In this document: positions 9,973 through 62,937 of the stretch, piece by piece
Position numbering within the stretch: the first letter of the stretch is position 1
Layout: every line of letters starts with the position of its first letter
Assembly (NCBI GenBank): GCA_961205875.1
Contig: OY540817.1
Span: 3,073,001 to 3,137,000 of the forward strand
Source of the DNA: Sialis fuliginosa
Taxonomy: Eukaryota > Arthropoda > Insecta > Megaloptera > Sialidae
Length of the DNA: 64,000 bases
Reading direction: 5' to 3'
Notes under the pieces: model-generated
The model's database searches: none
What the model was told of the DNA's origin: nothing
The model's input: only the letters and a program-made list of their open reading frames with translations
Position numbers and translations under genes: made by a program

Positions 9973-10068
9973 TACTACGATATATAACGTATGTCTTATC
10001 AGTTTAAGCGTAAAAAATATCAAAGTTAATATTCAATGTTTTTAAATGCTGCGAGAAGTTCAAACATG

Positions 10069-10682
10069 TGTAATGGTATCCCACTTCTGACACCAATTTT
10101 GTAATGATATCCCAGCTTCTGACACCAATTTTGTAATGATTTTTGGTCCCAACTTCTTCTGACACCAAATTTGTAATATTTGTTGTAATCGTGTCGTGAA
10201 ATAATCCACAAGAAAACAATTTAATTGCTGATTTAAATATATTTATTTATTACAAGTTGTTACATGATGTTAAAGTCTTAATGTGTATATCTTAGTGTTT
10301 GTATCTTCATGTTCAAGTCTTCATAATAATGTGTTCATAATAATAATAATCTAGTATTTTCTAAGTTAACCTTATATATGTATATGCAATATGTATTGTA
10401 CCTTGTCTTGTACATAGGGTAGATGGTTGTTCCTTTCACAAATTGTCATGCCTCTAGTAATAAAATTATGTCGACCCTAAATGTACAAGTGTGTTAAAAA
10501 TAAATGGGTTTAAATATTATACTTGTTACAAAATAGTAATAAACAATTTAGATGTCAACCCTCGTCCTTTGAGCTATTGTGTAATGATTTAGAATAGATA
10601 GTTATATAGATTTTTACACATAGGAAAAGATATATTACGGTCATTTCAGTCAAAGTCAAGTGTGTCCTGCAAATACATTACA
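10069..10682 (-). repeat. 3' LTR of the gypsy element (left-hand copy)
   Basis: Same length and, by eye, same sequence as the right-hand LTR. It is preceded on the sense strand by a polypurine tract and followed by host DNA after the CATG duplication. It carries the same three internal primer-site-like units near its left edge. Confidence 0.92.
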
Positions 10683-10693
10683 CCTCCCTTCTT
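10683..10693 (-). promoter_or_regulatory. polypurine tract for plus-strand priming
   Basis: On the sense strand AAGAAGGGAGG directly abuts the TGTAATG start of the 3' LTR, the expected position for plus-strand DNA priming. Confidence 0.85.
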
Positions 10694-11130
10694 AATGAAA
10701 AGATAAGTCGAGGCTTATCTTTTGAACCCTTGATTTAACAATGATTTTGATTATTTTGTAAATATACATATTATTATTTTGTTTGATTTTATGACATGTT
10801 ATTAAGTCATCTAATTTCAAGGTACCACTGTGCATTTGTATGAAGTAAGTATAAGGCTAAAATATAACATTGTTTTTTTTTCATTCATAAGTACCAATAT
10901 CGTACGAATATGAAACGAATGTTTTCGTTTGATTATTTTGATTAAAATATAACGTTGAAATTTTCAATTAGACTATATTTTGAAATTTGTTTTAGAGAAA
11001 TTGATATAGTCAGATTTTGGTAGTACAATTAGTATTAAATTATTAAAATTTTAAATTGAAATTAATTTTATTATTAATTTTTATTTTTATATAAGTATAT
11101 ATATGTAGATTTTGAAACGAACACATGTTA

Positions 11131-13827
11131 TTAATCCGTGTTAACAAAAGCGTGTTTTAGTCGATCCACGTGGACTTTTACCTTTCGTTTATTTATTTGA
11201 ATAGTGACATTTGTATCGGAGTTTTGTTCGATAACCGTATATGGACCATTATATTTAGGACTTAGCTTTTTTGATTGATTTAATTTAGTTGATTCGTTTA
11301 GAATATATACTTTGTCTCCTACCGAATAATTTATAATTTTAGATTTTTTATCGTAATATTTTTTATTTGTTAATTTTGATTTAATTATATTATTTCTTGC
11401 GATCTCATAACTTTTATTTAGTTTTAACTTTAATTCGTCTACATAATCTTCGTAAGAGTATTTAAATTCAGGATTTTGTGATATAGAAGTAGGAAGTTCG
11501 GGTTTTTTACCAAATAGCAATTCATGAGGGGAGAATAAGGTAGATGAATGAGGAGTAGTGTTATAAGAAAACATACTGAATTGAATCCACTCGTCCCAAT
11601 CTGATTGATTGTTATTAATATAATGTTTAAGATATTCAGCAAGAGTGGAATGACTACGTTCTAAACTTCCGTTACTTTGTGGTCTATATGCCGTTGTTTG
11701 AATATTTTTTATTTTGAATAACTTAGATATATTTTTGAATAAATTTGATGTAAAATCTTTCCCTTGATCTGTAAGAATGAATTTAGGTATTCCAAATTTA
11801 CAAATAAAATTATTTACAAATGTTTTAGAAATTGTTTCAGCATCATGAACTGGTAATGGATAAGCTTGTGAATATTTAGTTAGATCATCTTGTAAGGTCA
11901 AAATATATTTATTACCGTTTTCCGTTACAGGTAAAGGACCTACTATGTCTAGAGATATTTTTTCAAATGGTTCAGTTGCCGTTGTGGTTAATTCCATTGG
12001 CTTTTTAGATTTTTTTCTAATAAGTTTATTTTTCTGGCAAGATTCGCATGATTTAATAAATTTTGAAATTTCATTTTTCATATTGTCCCATTTATATTTA
12101 TCCTTGATTCTATTATACATTCTATGAAATCCTGGATGTCCTGCTAATGGACTAGAATGATTTTCATTTAAAATAGTTTGTATCTCTTCTCGAGTTGGGT
12201 TATATATTATATTATGATATATATTTATAGATATGTCAGAATCCTTAAAAATGTATCTTAAAATAGACCGGACCTTGTGCCACTTAAGTTTATTAGATTT
12301 ATCCAATTTTGGAATAGAAATAGAAGTTATATTATTTTGAATTAATTGTTCTTTTAATTTAACGAATAAATCAAATATATTTTTGTATTCTAAATTGTCC
12401 CAAAAGTTTTCCTTATATACTAAATAAAATATAAAATGATTGTTATGTTTTAAAAATTGAATATCATGAGTCTTAAGATTTTGATTTTTTAAGGTATCTA
12501 GATGATTGTATTTATGAACGACCTTAGAGAATAAGTGTTGTGATAAATCATCTAGATCTTTAGAAGTAAACACAACTATATTATCATTTATATCTAAAAT
12601 TGATGAATCGAATTCATTTAAATTATTATTATTGATAATGGAATTTTGTAAAGTTTTTAGGAATTCGTCATATTTTATGTTTGTTTGAATTGTATTTATT
12701 TTAGTTTGACTTAATTCTTGGATTAAATCAGAAATTTTACGATTATTTTTATGTTTAATTAATTTATCTGAATTTGGATTTTTATTTGCGAGATTAATGG
12801 TTGATTTAGATTTAGTGTTGTCGTCAAAATTCAATAATGTTTGAGAATTTATTCTTGATATATGATTTATTAAAAATTGACTTGAATAATTCTGACGCAT
12901 TTCTTGAGAACTCGTGATGTTTAAAGAATTAGCGTGATTTTGAGTATTATTGTTATTAAAATTAATATTTCGTTTATTATTATTATATTCACGTCTTCTG
13001 CATTCTGAAATTAAGTGACCTAATTTTTTACAATAATTACATTTTTTTGTGAAGTACGTGTTAGTATAATTATTTGTTTGAATTTGTCTATTAGGTTCTG
13101 ATTTTATTGGCTTAGGTTTTTTATAGCAGTTTGCCAAAGTGTGACCCGTTCTCTCACAGAAACTACAATATTTATTATTAATTGTGTTAAGATTTTGATA
13201 TTTTTGGATTTCGGACTTGGAAATGATTTCTTGTTCTTCTCCTAAAGCTATTGAAATTGCGTGCTCTAACGTTTCGGGTTTTTGAGATTTCACAAGTAGT
13301 GATAAGTCTTTATTTAATCCCGATACAAATACGTTTAGTGCTTGATTTTTCAAAAGTTCGGTACAAGCTAATTTTCCGTCATTTGATAAGTTTCTATCTA
13401 AAGTATTTAATAATTTGATATAATAGTTTTCTACTTTGTTGGCAAATGATAAAACAGGTTCTTTAGGATTTTGTCTACACGAATTTAATTCTAACTGCCA
13501 TTGTCCTACAGTTCTTTTATCGGAATATAATTCTAATAAATGGTTCTTTAGTTCAAACCAATTTGTAAATATTCTATTTTTTATTAAAACTCTCGCGTTG
13601 TCCGTTATTTTAGTTTCAATTATTGCAAACAATATTGGTTTTAGCGATTCTGATACAAGATTATACGCTTTGTCACAATTATCAACAAACTCAAATAATT
13701 TTGACTTGTTACCATCAAATCTGATTAACATTTTCTCTGCTAACTCGATTGAAATTGTCATTTTGATTTTGGTACGAATGAGTGAGACAAAAATGAAGTA
13801 TAATTTTAAATAAAACGCACAATGCAC
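11131..13827 (-). CDS. Gag-integrase fusion protein of mdg1/412-like Ty3/gypsy element
   Basis: One uninterrupted 898-codon frame. Met23 (codon 13759-13761, MTISIELAEK) is the likelier Gag start, because the 22 residues before it look like untranslated leader. In order: a Gag capsid-like region (about 25-200); two CCHC zinc knuckles (C221, C224, H229, C234 and C263, C266, H271, C276); an Asn-rich linker (280-420); a segment resembling the C-terminal half of a macro domain (about 464-539); the integrase zinc-binding module (H557, H564, C594, C597); the integrase core with D627, D687 and E723 in exact D,D35E spacing; and a C-terminal domain ending near residue 898. Protease, reverse transcriptase and RNase H, which normally separate Gag from this part of Pol, are missing, yet the frame is intact. 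The product would be a nucleocapsid-integrase chimera expressed from the LTR. Confidence 0.9.
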   Translation of the reverse strand: MHCAFYLKLYFIFVSLIRTKIKMTISIELAEKMLIRFDGNKSKLFEFVDNCDKAYNLVSESLKPILFAIIETKITDNARVLIKNRIFTNWFELKNHLLELYSDKRTVGQWQLELNSCRQNPKEPVLSFANKVENYYIKLLNTLDRNLSNDGKLACTELLKNQALNVFVSGLNKDLSLLVKSQKPETLEHAISIALGEEQEIISKSEIQKYQNLNTINNKYCSFCERTGHTLANCYKKPKPIKSEPNRQIQTNNYTNTYFTKKCNYCKKLGHLISECRRREYNNNKRNINFNNNNTQNHANSLNITSSQEMRQNYSSQFLINHISRINSQTLLNFDDNTKSKSTINLANKNPNSDKLIKHKNNRKISDLIQELSQTKINTIQTNIKYDEFLKTLQNSIINNNNLNEFDSSILDINDNIVVFTSKDLDDLSQHLFSKVVHKYNHLDTLKNQNLKTHDIQFLKHNNHFIFYLVYKENFWDNLEYKNIFDLFVKLKEQLIQNNITSISIPKLDKSNKLKWHKVRSILRYIFKDSDISINIYHNIIYNPTREEIQTILNENHSSPLAGHPGFHRMYNRIKDKYKWDNMKNEISKFIKSCESCQKNKLIRKKSKKPMELTTTATEPFEKISLDIVGPLPVTENGNKYILTLQDDLTKYSQAYPLPVHDAETISKTFVNNFICKFGIPKFILTDQGKDFTSNLFKNISKLFKIKNIQTTAYRPQSNGSLERSHSTLAEYLKHYINNNQSDWDEWIQFSMFSYNTTPHSSTLFSPHELLFGKKPELPTSISQNPEFKYSYEDYVDELKLKLNKSYEIARNNIIKSKLTNKKYYDKKSKIINYSVGDKVYILNESTKLNQSKKLSPKYNGPYTVIEQNSDTNVTIQINKRKVKVHVDRLKHAFVNTD

Positions 13828-13939
13828 AGAGTGAAATTGAAATTTAAATGACTTACATTAATATCATCAGCTCTTCAATTGGACAGCGATTTGGACAGGT
13901 TGATGGAACAGCGACACAGCGATGTAGAGTAGTGACTCC

Positions 13940-14239
13940 GCGACTTGTAGATTTTGGATTTAGCGACTTGTAGATTTTGGATTCAGCGACTTGTAGATTT
14001 TGGATTTAGCGACTTGTAGATTTTGGATTTAGCGACTTGTAGATTTTGGATTCAGCGACTTGTAGATTTTGGATTTAGCGACTTGTAGATTTTGGATTTA
14101 GCGACTTGTAGATTTTGGATTTAGCGACTTGTAGATGTTGGATTTAGTGACTTGTAGATTTTGGATTTAGTGACTTGTAGATTTTGGATTTAGCGACTTG
14201 TAGATTTTGGATTTAGCGACTTGTAGATTTTGTAGATTT
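13940..14239 (-). repeat. 13-copy 23-bp tandem repeat in element leader
   Basis: The unit is about GCGACTTGTAGATTTTGGAT plus TTA. Thirteen near-identical copies run head to tail between the primer-binding site and the Gag frame. Variation is limited to single changes (TTCA for TTTA, GTGAC for GCGAC). It would be transcribed as part of the 5' untranslated leader. Confidence 0.9.
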
Positions 14240-14401
14240 AGTGTATTTGAAATATTTGTTCAGCGATGTAGATTTGGATTCAATTGAATTTTCTTGATTT
14301 GATTGTCGACACTTTTGATTACTGTTCCTCCTTCAAGATTTGGAAATCTCCGTACTGACGAAATTCTTGATCTTCAAGCTTTGGCGGTACGTAAGGAAGA
14401 C

Positions 14402-14419
14402 ATCCCACTTCTGACACCA
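14402..14419 (-). promoter_or_regulatory. primer-binding site, tRNA-Leu type
   Basis: The + strand reads ATCCCACTTCTGACACCA, matching what I recall of an insect tRNA-Leu 3' end including CCA. The element's sense strand is therefore complementary to it. It lies four bases (ATTT) inside the 5' LTR boundary. Confidence 0.8.
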
Positions 14420-14423
14420 ATTT

Positions 14424-15037
14424 TGTAATGGTATCCCACTTCTGACACCAATTTTGTAATGATATCCCAGCTTCTGACACCAATTTTGTAATGATTTTTG
14501 GTCCCAACTTCTTCTGACACCAAATTTGTAATATTTGTTGTAATCGTGTCGTGAAATAATCCACAAGAAAACAATTTAATTGCTGATTTAAATATATTTA
14601 TTTATTACAAGTTGTTACATGATGTTAAAGTCTTAATGTGTATATCTTAGTGTTTGTATCTTCATGTTCAAGTCTTCATAATAATGTGTTCATAATAATA
14701 ATAATCTAGTATTTTCTAAGTTAACCTTATATATGTATATGCAATATGTATTGTACCTTGTCTTGTACATAGGGTAGATGGTTGTTCCTTTCACAAATTG
14801 TCATGCCTCTAGTAATAAAATTATGTCGACCCTAAATGTACAAGTGTGTTAAAAATAAATGGGTTTAAATATTATACTTGTTACAAAATAGTAATAAACA
14901 ATTTAGATGTCAACCCTCGTCCTTTGAGCTATTGTGTAATGATTTAGAATAGATAGTTATATAGATTTTTACACATAGGAAAAGATATATTACGGTCATT
15001 TCAGTCAAAGTCAAGTGTGTCCTGCAAATACATTACA
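14424..15037 (-). repeat. 5' LTR of the gypsy element (right-hand copy)
   Basis: 614 bases bounded by TGTAATG and CATTACA. On the element's sense strand it would be U3-R-U5 read leftward. AATAAA-type signals appear on the - strand around 14590-14610 and a TATA-like stretch around 14955-14965. Its U5 end carries three primer-site-like units at 14433-14450, 14464-14482 and 14501-14522. Confidence 0.92.
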
Positions 15038-15041
15038 CATG

Positions 15042-59862: not shown

Positions 59863-60247
59863 GTTATCTATAAAAAAAATCGTATATTAATGCATTTCCA
59901 AAATGTTTAACTAAAATTTTCCTTTGTAGGTACCACATAAGGAGGGGGGTATGTTTAGGTTACTACAGTACTCCCTCCTATTTTTTATTGTGATATATAT
60001 AAATTACATAGTTAATTACTTTTATTATTTTTTATATATTTTTTTTTATCAATTTTTTACTCCCCCCCCCCCCCCCCCCAACCCCCAACTTCTAAAAAGT
60101 TTGGGGTATGTCAATATCTACAATATATTCAATCCAAATAGAATAAATTTTACAAATATATACATAAATACTAATAACTAAATATAAGTAAAAAAAATAA
60201 AAAATAAACTTTTGAGTTATACTAATAAATAATTTTTTTTGTTACAG
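59863..60247 (+). other. sdk intron sequence upstream of exon A
   Basis: Contains an 18-C run (60062-60079) and pyrimidine-rich sequence leading to the GTTACAG acceptor. No upstream exon seen. Confidence 0.6.
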
Positions 60248-60343
60248 AATCGCTTCAAGCTCCCCGTTTCATAACTCAACCATCATCTGTAAGCAGTATT
60301 GTTAGTGAAGGACGGACAAAAATTTTACAATGTCAAGCTTTAG
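60248..60343 (+). CDS. sdk: sidekick exon A: first half of Ig domain 1
   Basis: Sidekick is a large single-pass adhesion protein (six Ig and thirteen fibronectin III domains in the fly) that acts at cell junctions and in visual-system wiring. This exon follows a GTTACAG acceptor and ends at TTAG|GTACGT. It starts two bases into a codon and encodes QAPRFITQPSS, then SIVSEGRTKILQCQALG, including the first Ig cysteine. I recognise these blocks as typical of the mature N-terminus of insect Sidekick. No start codon or signal peptide lies in this exon, so at least one exon is upstream. Only the family assignment relies on memory; splice sites and frame are read directly. Confidence 0.9.
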
Positions 60344-60415
60344 GTACGTGTACAAAATTAAAGAAAATTAATTCTATTTACAATGTTAATAACTATTATA
60401 TTTATTTACAAACAG

Positions 60416-60592
60416 GTTTTCCACAGCCAAAATATCAATGGTTACGTGATGACGAACCTTTAGGTGATTTTACTAGTGAACCTTATTACAAGATCATAAA
60501 TACAGGTCGGGGAGATGTTGGTAGCTACAAATGCATAGCTCGCAATGATGTTGGCTCAATATTTAGTGAAGAGATACATGTTACTGTTGCTT
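60416..60592 (+). CDS. sdk: sidekick exon B: second half of Ig domain 1
   Basis: The acceptor is AACAG and the donor is T|GTAAGT. The exon completes the split glycine codon of exon A and encodes FPQPKYQWLRDDEPLGDF, then a stretch with GSYKCIARNDVGSIFSEE. It carries the core tryptophan and the second Ig cysteine in the usual D-x-G-x-Y-x-C context, so domain 1 is a normal disulfide-bonded Ig fold. The preceding intron is only 72 bases. The following intron carries a small TA-flanked element (60661-61139). Confidence 0.92.
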
Positions 60593-60660
60593 GTAAGTTT
60601 TTAATATAAGAAACAACAAAATTGGAAATTCAAAGATACCCTACTGTATAAGAAATCATA

Positions 60661-62441: not shown

Positions 62442-62502
62442 GTATTAAACATTACATGAATTAAATGTGAATGATAAATTTCATAATAATTAATATTTTT
62501 AG

Positions 62503-62862
62503 ACCACTACATGAACTCGAAATCTTATGGTTGAAAGATGGTATTTTAATTGAAAATTCTGGAATAACATATAATTTTAACGATCCTTGGAATAGGACTC
62601 TTGCATTGTTAACTGCAAATTTGAATTATACAGGACAGTACACTTGCCAAGTGCGTTTACGAACTGGAGGTTATCCTGTTATAAGTGCATCAGCAAATAT
62701 ATCTGTATTAGAAAAACCATCTTTTGTTAGCAATCAAAAATCAGAAACTTTAGGAGACTACGGATCCACTGTTGTACTTCCTTGTGATATAATCGGAGTT
62801 CCGACTCCAAATGTTACGTGGTTCAGAAATGCAAAACGTATTAAAATTTCTCCCGTTAGTAG
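62503..62862 (+). CDS. sdk: sidekick exon E: rest of Ig3, first half of Ig4
   Basis: This is the longest exon here (360 bases), following a 61-base intron, with acceptor TTTTTAG and donor AG|GTAAGT. It encodes PLHELEILWLKDG, then NDPWNRTLALL and GQYTCQVRLRTGGYP (end of Ig3), then VVLPCDIIGVPTPNVTWFRN (first cysteine and core Trp of Ig4). The WNRTLALL and QVRLR-GGYP blocks are the most characteristic Sidekick signature in the window. There are no internal stops and the reading frame agrees with both neighbours. Confidence 0.93.
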
Positions 62863-62937
62863 GTAAGTTGAAATGAATATGCTTTTGTTAAATATAAATT
62901 GAGAACATAAGCTTAATAAATAAATGTAATATTTTAG

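Follow-up and report, generated by a model that had tools for sequence, protein, structure and literature searches.

Nested, superseded primer-binding sites in the U5 region of an insect Ty3/gypsy-type retrotransposon as a probable record of LTR-boundary displacement

The 64,000-nt stretch of Sialis fuliginosa DNA analysed here (the window) contains a Ty3/gypsy-type retrotransposon, the features of which are collected in Table 1. It is bounded by two direct LTRs that are 100% identical, with TG...CA ends and a target-site duplication (TSD) of CATG, and both a primer-binding site (PBS) behind the 5' LTR and a polypurine tract before the 3' LTR are present. The element is a recent insertion. No tRNA genes or Rfam families were found in the 64-kb window. 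Two frames with immunoglobulin domains, at 60229-60609 and 62471-62866 (+), are probably exons of a protein that we guess to be of the cell-adhesion type.

Table 1. Coordinates of the retrotransposon and its parts (positions in the window)
Feature	Position	Strand	Remarks
Whole Ty3/gypsy-type retrotransposon	10069-15037	-	4969 bp; interior 3741 bp
5' LTR	14424-15037	-	614 bp, ends TGTAATGT...CCATTACA
3' LTR	10069-10682	-	identical to 5' LTR
Target-site duplication CATG, element 5' side	15038-15041	.	
Target-site duplication CATG, element 3' side	10065-10068	.	
Polypurine tract AAGAAGGGAGG	10683-10693	-	before 3' LTR
Open frame, 908 aa	11131-13857	-	first Met 13761
23-bp x 12.7 tandem array in 5' leader	13940-14232	-	
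Functional PBS, 18 nt	14402-14419	-	complementary to tRNA-Leu(CAG) 3' end + CCA
Spacer AAAT (plus-strand ATTT), 4 nt, LTR end to PBS	14420-14423	-	
Fossil unit b	14433-14454	-	exact 18-nt PBS copy 14433-14450 + spacer
Fossil unit c	14464-14486	-	PBS copy 14464-14482 (one base inserted) + spacer
Fossil unit d, innermost	14500-14526	-	diverged PBS copy 14500-14522 + spacer

The sole long frame of the interior specifies gag (a weak match, E 0.015), zinc fingers/knuckle, a macrodomain-like stretch and integrase. Protease, reverse transcriptase (RT) and RNase H are absent from the element, and the gag-integrase frame shows neither a YxDD motif nor an RT match; because these functions are missing, the window copy is non-autonomous, carrying gag and integrase. 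A copy of the same family elsewhere in the genome (C3, L029) has RVP followed by RVT_1 and RNase H, which is the Ty3/gypsy order of pol, and farther downstream this copy shares 99.7% identity with the integrase half of the window element; a further copy (C14) has a frame of 1308 aa, comparable in length to that of the C3 copy and still open where the piece ends. The gag-integrase joint of the window element recurs in the elements of L024 and L017, and about 194 bp at the joint have no match in either full-length copy (E 1e-20). The deletion derivative is present in three copies (the window element, L027 and L028), with 3, 0 and 1, respectively, of the fossil units described below. Arrays related to the 23-bp leader array occur in the elements of L017 and L024. 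The macrodomain-like stretch (12217-12516, minus strand; residues 448-547 of the frame, just before integrase) resembles the macrodomain of OARD1/C6orf130 (phmmer E ~1e-9 with the whole frame, 6e-11 with the stretch alone), the match spanning residues 44-144 of a 146-residue chain; its structure prediction is too weak to rely on (mean pLDDT 49.8).

The unusual feature of the element is the end of its U5, where three fossil units, each consisting of an LTR end, a spacer and a PBS, follow one another with periods of 31, 32 and 40 bp. In element orientation the text runs TATTACA-AATT-(TGGTGTCAGAAGAAGTTGGGACC..) for unit d and CATTACA-AAAT-(TGGTGTCAGAAGCTGGGAT) for unit c, then CATTACA-AAAT-(TGGTGTCAGAAGTGGGAT) for unit b, and lastly CATTACA, which is the LTR end, AAAT and the functional PBS, TGGTGTCAGAAGTGGGAT. 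The nested LTR ends of units b, c and d lie at 14455, 14487 and 14527 and would correspond to LTRs of 583, 551 and 511 bp. All four units of the window retain the motif CA-4nt-TGG, and the 3' LTR contains the same three fossils letter for letter. Two AATAAA signals stand at LTR positions 432 and 436, which suggests that most of U5 consists of the ladder. Folding of the U5-PBS region as RNA gave no interpretable structure.

A reading of the sequence alone had described an exact second copy of the PBS, a copy with one extra base and a diverged fourth, with divergence rising inward. The first two were confirmed, as was the fourth, with its start at 14500, and ungapped likeness of the four 31-nt repeats to the first falls from 100 through 97 and 84 to 74%. 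The same reading took the text between the PBS copies to be the LTR terminus itself; the units are indeed separated by the LTR end, but the ATTT at 14420-14423 is a spacer, and the true terminus is TGTAATG (14424-14430). Chance similarity was rejected as the source of the ladder, since only 15 of 20000 random 614-mers (Markov-1) contain even one PBS-like site (<=3 edits), and the 12-mer TGGTGTCAGAAG occurs seven times in the 64-kb window (both strands), always in the two LTRs or the PBS. An assembly artefact was likewise ruled out, the units being present in both LTRs and at many loci.

The primer can be named from the element's own genome. The 21-nt tRNA 3' end GTTCGAATCCCACTTCTGACA occurs there at six places, at two of which (L058 and L059) ARAGORN finds a tRNA-Leu(CAG). 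When the units were aligned to tRNA-Leu genes, as had been proposed from the sequence alone, the functional unit matched this tRNA plus CCA at 18/18 nt, the 3' end of the L059 gene (1438-1521) plus CCA being the exact complement of the PBS. The other four places, where ARAGORN makes no call, read like intron-bearing tRNA-Leu(CAA) genes (L054, L057) and partial tRNA copies (L055, L056). A 22-nt form of the same 3' end is listed in print as a tRNA fragment from a paper that bears tRNA-Leu-CAA in its title (PMC12025293). The inner units were also considered as copies of another tRNA-Leu and rejected as such, the PBS copies of 19 nt and longer not fitting the 18-nt stretch that runs from position 59 through CCA.

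The genome searched comprised 392 Mb in 20 contigs. A query of 14380-14560 found 20 places, and a query with the LTR body, in which 40 of 66 candidates were scored, gave 49 matches. Two LTR-body matches (C12:96599 and C11:18997714) were left out, and rows with an unusable U5 end (L036, L039, L044, L048-L053) were dropped. L040, L046 and L047 have the same flanks on both sides and were counted as one insertion. Their 5' flank is shared with L048-L053 (in L051 one base of the LTR start differs), so that another repeat seems to have taken this zero-unit solo LTR along to many places.

The number of units per copy is not fixed, as a count that had been suggested beforehand makes plain: LTRs with 0, 1, 2 and 3 fossil units coexist in one genome. 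None is present in L024, L034, L035, L037, L038, L040 (with L046 and L047), L041, L042 and L045; one in L017, L019/L021, L020, L022 and L025; two in L013-L016, L018 and the diverged L043 (the same place as L026); and three in the window element, L010/L011, L012 and the diverged L023. A d-type unit with a longer PBS copy is found in 15 of the 16 unit-bearing core LTRs, the exception being L025. The three elements with two LTRs have equal numbers in both (window 3/3, L010/L011 3/3, L019/L021 1/1), indicating that the number of units was set before integration.

Of the 21 insertions that could be scored, 19 have an exact 4-bp TSD directly outside their outermost LTR end: all 13 of a first set (the window element, two other two-LTR elements and 10 single LTRs) and six of the eight in a second, for which exact LTR starts were used (L037, L038, L040, L041, L042 and L043), the two misses being the zero-unit L034 and L035. 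By unit number, five of the certified insertions have none, four have one, six have two and four have three. L017, L024 and L045 stand outside this count, L045 having no recognisable start. The 3' LTRs of L024 (0 units) and L017 (1) are absent from about 9.5 kb downstream, and for this reason the boundary of these two is read from the PBS alone. Certified zero-unit LTRs measure 511 bp (L037), 495 bp (L038) and 327 bp (L040). The spans between TSDs are longer in L042 (802 bp), L041 (835 bp) and L043 (1660 bp), and these therefore contain other insertions or represent relatives with longer LTRs.

It might be thought that the inner PBSs are kept for a function, such as providing alternative sites for priming or a signal in U5. 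Each of the four window units preserves the 12 nt adjacent to the primer 3' end, unit b matches at 18/18, and a simple placement simulation puts the chance of such conservation at 0.05-0.09. Other copies, however, are altered within the same 12 nt (GTCAGCAG, TGGTATC, CGGTGTC), so that no selection on the fossils is claimed, and zero-unit relatives have integrated, with TSDs. A kept function is regarded as very improbable.

The direction of change was followed on a tree of 26 LTR bodies, taken without their ladders and rooted at the midpoint. All nine zero-unit rows fall outside a ladder-bearing core of 15 rows, within which L022 (one unit) branches first, followed by L017 and L020 (one each) and then a group with one to three. 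The diverged LTRs with ladders, L023 (three units) and L043 (two), lie outside the core on long branches. Unit number changes 7 times on this tree (minimum 3) against a mean of 14.4 after shuffling, with none of 200 shuffles as low, a figure to which near-copies contribute; in the 16 core rows alone clustering is weaker, at 6 changes against a shuffled mean of 8.2, with 16 of 200 as low. The core itself has support of 82/99 and is not starred, and among the 21 inner branches nine are open. Smaller trees again placed the zero-unit L024 outside; the 18-row tree used L026 with an arbitrary start, for which the 26-row tree has L043, the longer row from the same place.

Closer to the tips the numbers rise and fall. 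One starred clade mixes one, two and three units (L019/L021, L018, L012). Within it L018 and L012 have the change TGGTATC in unit c in common, and L012 has one outer unit more, a relationship that, from the sequences, would be expected of outward growth or of outer loss. In L010/L011 the fossil with the inserted C is present twice beside an intact functional PBS; judged from its sequence, the fossil itself is copied within the array. L025, with one unit that is without the d insert, looks like a contraction or a recombinant. The copies with the variant GTCAGCAG in unit d (L010, L011, L012, L015, L020) do not form one group on the tree, and this scatter suggests recombination or gene conversion between copies. 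The innermost unit of L023 and L043 has ATAAGAAGTT in common with the AGAAGAAGTT of unit d, which may mean that unit d is older than the split between these LTRs and the core, L024 then being a loss, or that a d-like unit arose twice. Given the midpoint root, the open branches, the 82/99 of the core and the position of L023 and L043, we are unsure of the number of origins of the ladder. The earlier proposal that the boundary moved outward step by step thus stands in its main part, borne out by the 0-1-2-3 series, the TSDs at the outer ends and the tree order of 0, then 1, then 1-3; the movement was not strictly one-way, as counts go both up and down at the tips and a fossil has been copied inside the array.

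In the established scheme of reverse transcription the PBS that is used sets the LTR end. A fossil PBS in both LTRs therefore means that priming took place at a PBS further out, whatever made the duplication. We consider it probable (roughly 0.78) that the fossils in the U5 end record a displacement of the LTR boundary, brought about by tandem duplication of the LTR end and PBS followed by priming at the outer site. The observations that carry this reading are the units themselves, the nested ends with TSDs, the 0-1-2-3 series, the tree order, the match to the tRNA and the equal counts in the three two-LTR elements. During replication of the element, the segment comprising the LTR end, the 4-nt spacer and the PBS would occasionally be duplicated in tandem. 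Most likely, the polymerase would copy through the PBS into the first bases of the leader (GGGATATC) and then slip back onto the ATC that it matches, immediately within the LTR end (AAATC/ATTACA). The resulting RNA would have two PBSs, and tRNA-Leu would prime at the outer one; everything from R to the outer PBS, including the old LTR end and the old PBS, would then be copied as U5 into both LTRs. The LTR would be longer by one unit, integrase would take the new outer CA, and the superseded PBS would be left to drift. The array would also act as a tandem repeat, in which units may be lost or copied internally. We infer that reverse transcription, and not DNA slippage, was the maker of the duplication, and the outer PBS was presumably the site used at that step.

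Several details of the leader and junctions bear on this scheme. After the PBS the leader reads ATCTTCC in L010, L017, L019 and L024 and GTCTTCC in the window, so that GGGATATC/TTCC is found in four of the five copies that show it, and the one-unit LTR end is AAATC-ATTACA. Among 12 outer-type units (two-LTR elements counted once), L014 and window unit c show the junction so predicted, GGGATATC/ATTACA, without change, and in the other 10 it is one base off (ATACC). Since ATC stands on both sides of the junction, the jump would have occurred at nt 18 or as much as three bases beyond it. No further PBS (<=2 edits of the first 12 nt) was found in the 250 nt beyond the functional PBS in any of the five copies with a leader, as if the outer site wins.

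The fossil PBSs could instead have been copied from the tRNA, plus-strand strong-stop DNA, which ends at tRNA nt 18, being mis-transferred to the U5 end rather than to the PBS complement; the duplication would have another source, while the displacement scheme would be the same. The PBS copies do stop at nt 18 or within 3 nt of it, the first-unit junction in L022 (GGGAT/CAAAT) is without leader bases, and in the available text on cqgypsy_1 of Culex, tRNA sequence lies between duplicated 26-nt LTR ends (PMC3286476). The later junction, GGGATATC/ATTACA, is nevertheless best explained by the ATC common to leader and U5, and bases from beyond position 59 of the tRNA gene appear in no fossil, making this origin distinctly improbable.

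The ATC junction is also compatible with ordinary DNA slippage, and the array could have been made by tandem-repeat slippage or unequal exchange in integrated copies, reverse transcription having only spread it. Unit number fluctuates at the tips, a fossil has been duplicated inside the array, the element has a second tandem array in its leader, and tandem repeats are present in the 5' UTR of three Culex elements of the Mag lineage according to the accessible part of their description (PMC3286476). Against this, the PBS, a site outside the LTR, is part of the unit, so that each fossil can have entered both U5s only through priming beyond it, and the LTR pairs agree in unit number in all three two-LTR elements. 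We regard an origin by DNA slippage as unlikely; it overlaps with boundary displacement by reverse transcription, the outer-priming step being common to both.

The ladder was correctly observed from the sequence alone, the boundary movement drawn from it was largely right, and the evidence for such movement is unusually direct. The evolution of LTR boundaries is usually invisible, but here a single genome keeps the intermediates, ordered by nesting and certified by TSDs, so that the rule by which the LTR end depends on the PBS in use can be followed as it plays out in evolution. For annotation, members of one family may differ in LTR length by unit steps, and a search for the PBS can land within the LTR. 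More tentatively, the LTR boundary may be a movable trait, the tandem exact PBSs (a and b of the window) letting each replication choose between nested LTR ends. LTR length would then rise or fall in steps of 31 bp from one generation to the next, in a ratchet that would convert old primer sites to U5, and the process may be general wherever PBS duplications occur.

No description of an LTR-end ladder of fossil PBSs was found in open-licence full text. Viral contigs held no relatives by protein, exact junction or spaced PBS pair, and genome contigs none by protein; one match to the spaced PBS pair in genome contigs belongs to an archaeal contig and was rejected, being read as a simple 18-bp repeat without relation to the ladder. 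Among known systems, HIV-1 with dual PBSs, reported as stably maintained (Li et al. 1997, Virology, as cited in PMC11181671), likewise has two primer sites in one genome, but these, by the title of that work, are for two different tRNAs, Gly and His. The Steamer element of bivalves resembles the window element in having TGGTGTCAGAAG, given as a tRNA-Leu PBS, behind its 5' LTR and an LTR start of TGTAA; it differs in that one PBS is described in the available text, directly after an LTR of 153-219 bp (PMC8905726). LTR cluster 149 of Anopheles gambiae is stated to have two PBSs; three sequences are assigned to valine and one to methionine, and in the text at hand these look like alternatives in assignment rather than sites in tandem (PMC3212995). 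Another insect LTR also has tandem repeats, but by the title of that work these are in the R region, whereas here they are LTR-end/PBS units. A tRNA-Leu PBS together with a 4-bp TSD agrees with some of the Mag rows seen in PMC3286476 and is not specific to Mag. Together with the dual-PBS HIV-1, the closest parallel is cqgypsy_1, of the Osvaldo lineage in Culex quinquefasciatus. It differs in having a 149-bp head-to-head tRNA pair beside the 5' LTR of one element, likened to a Twin insertion, and the part of its description that was available mentions neither a series of units within the LTR nor nested ends of the LTR; like the window element, it is an insect Ty3/gypsy element with a rearranged LTR/PBS junction, in which a 26-nt direct duplication of the LTR flanks the tRNA copies on both sides (PMC3286476).
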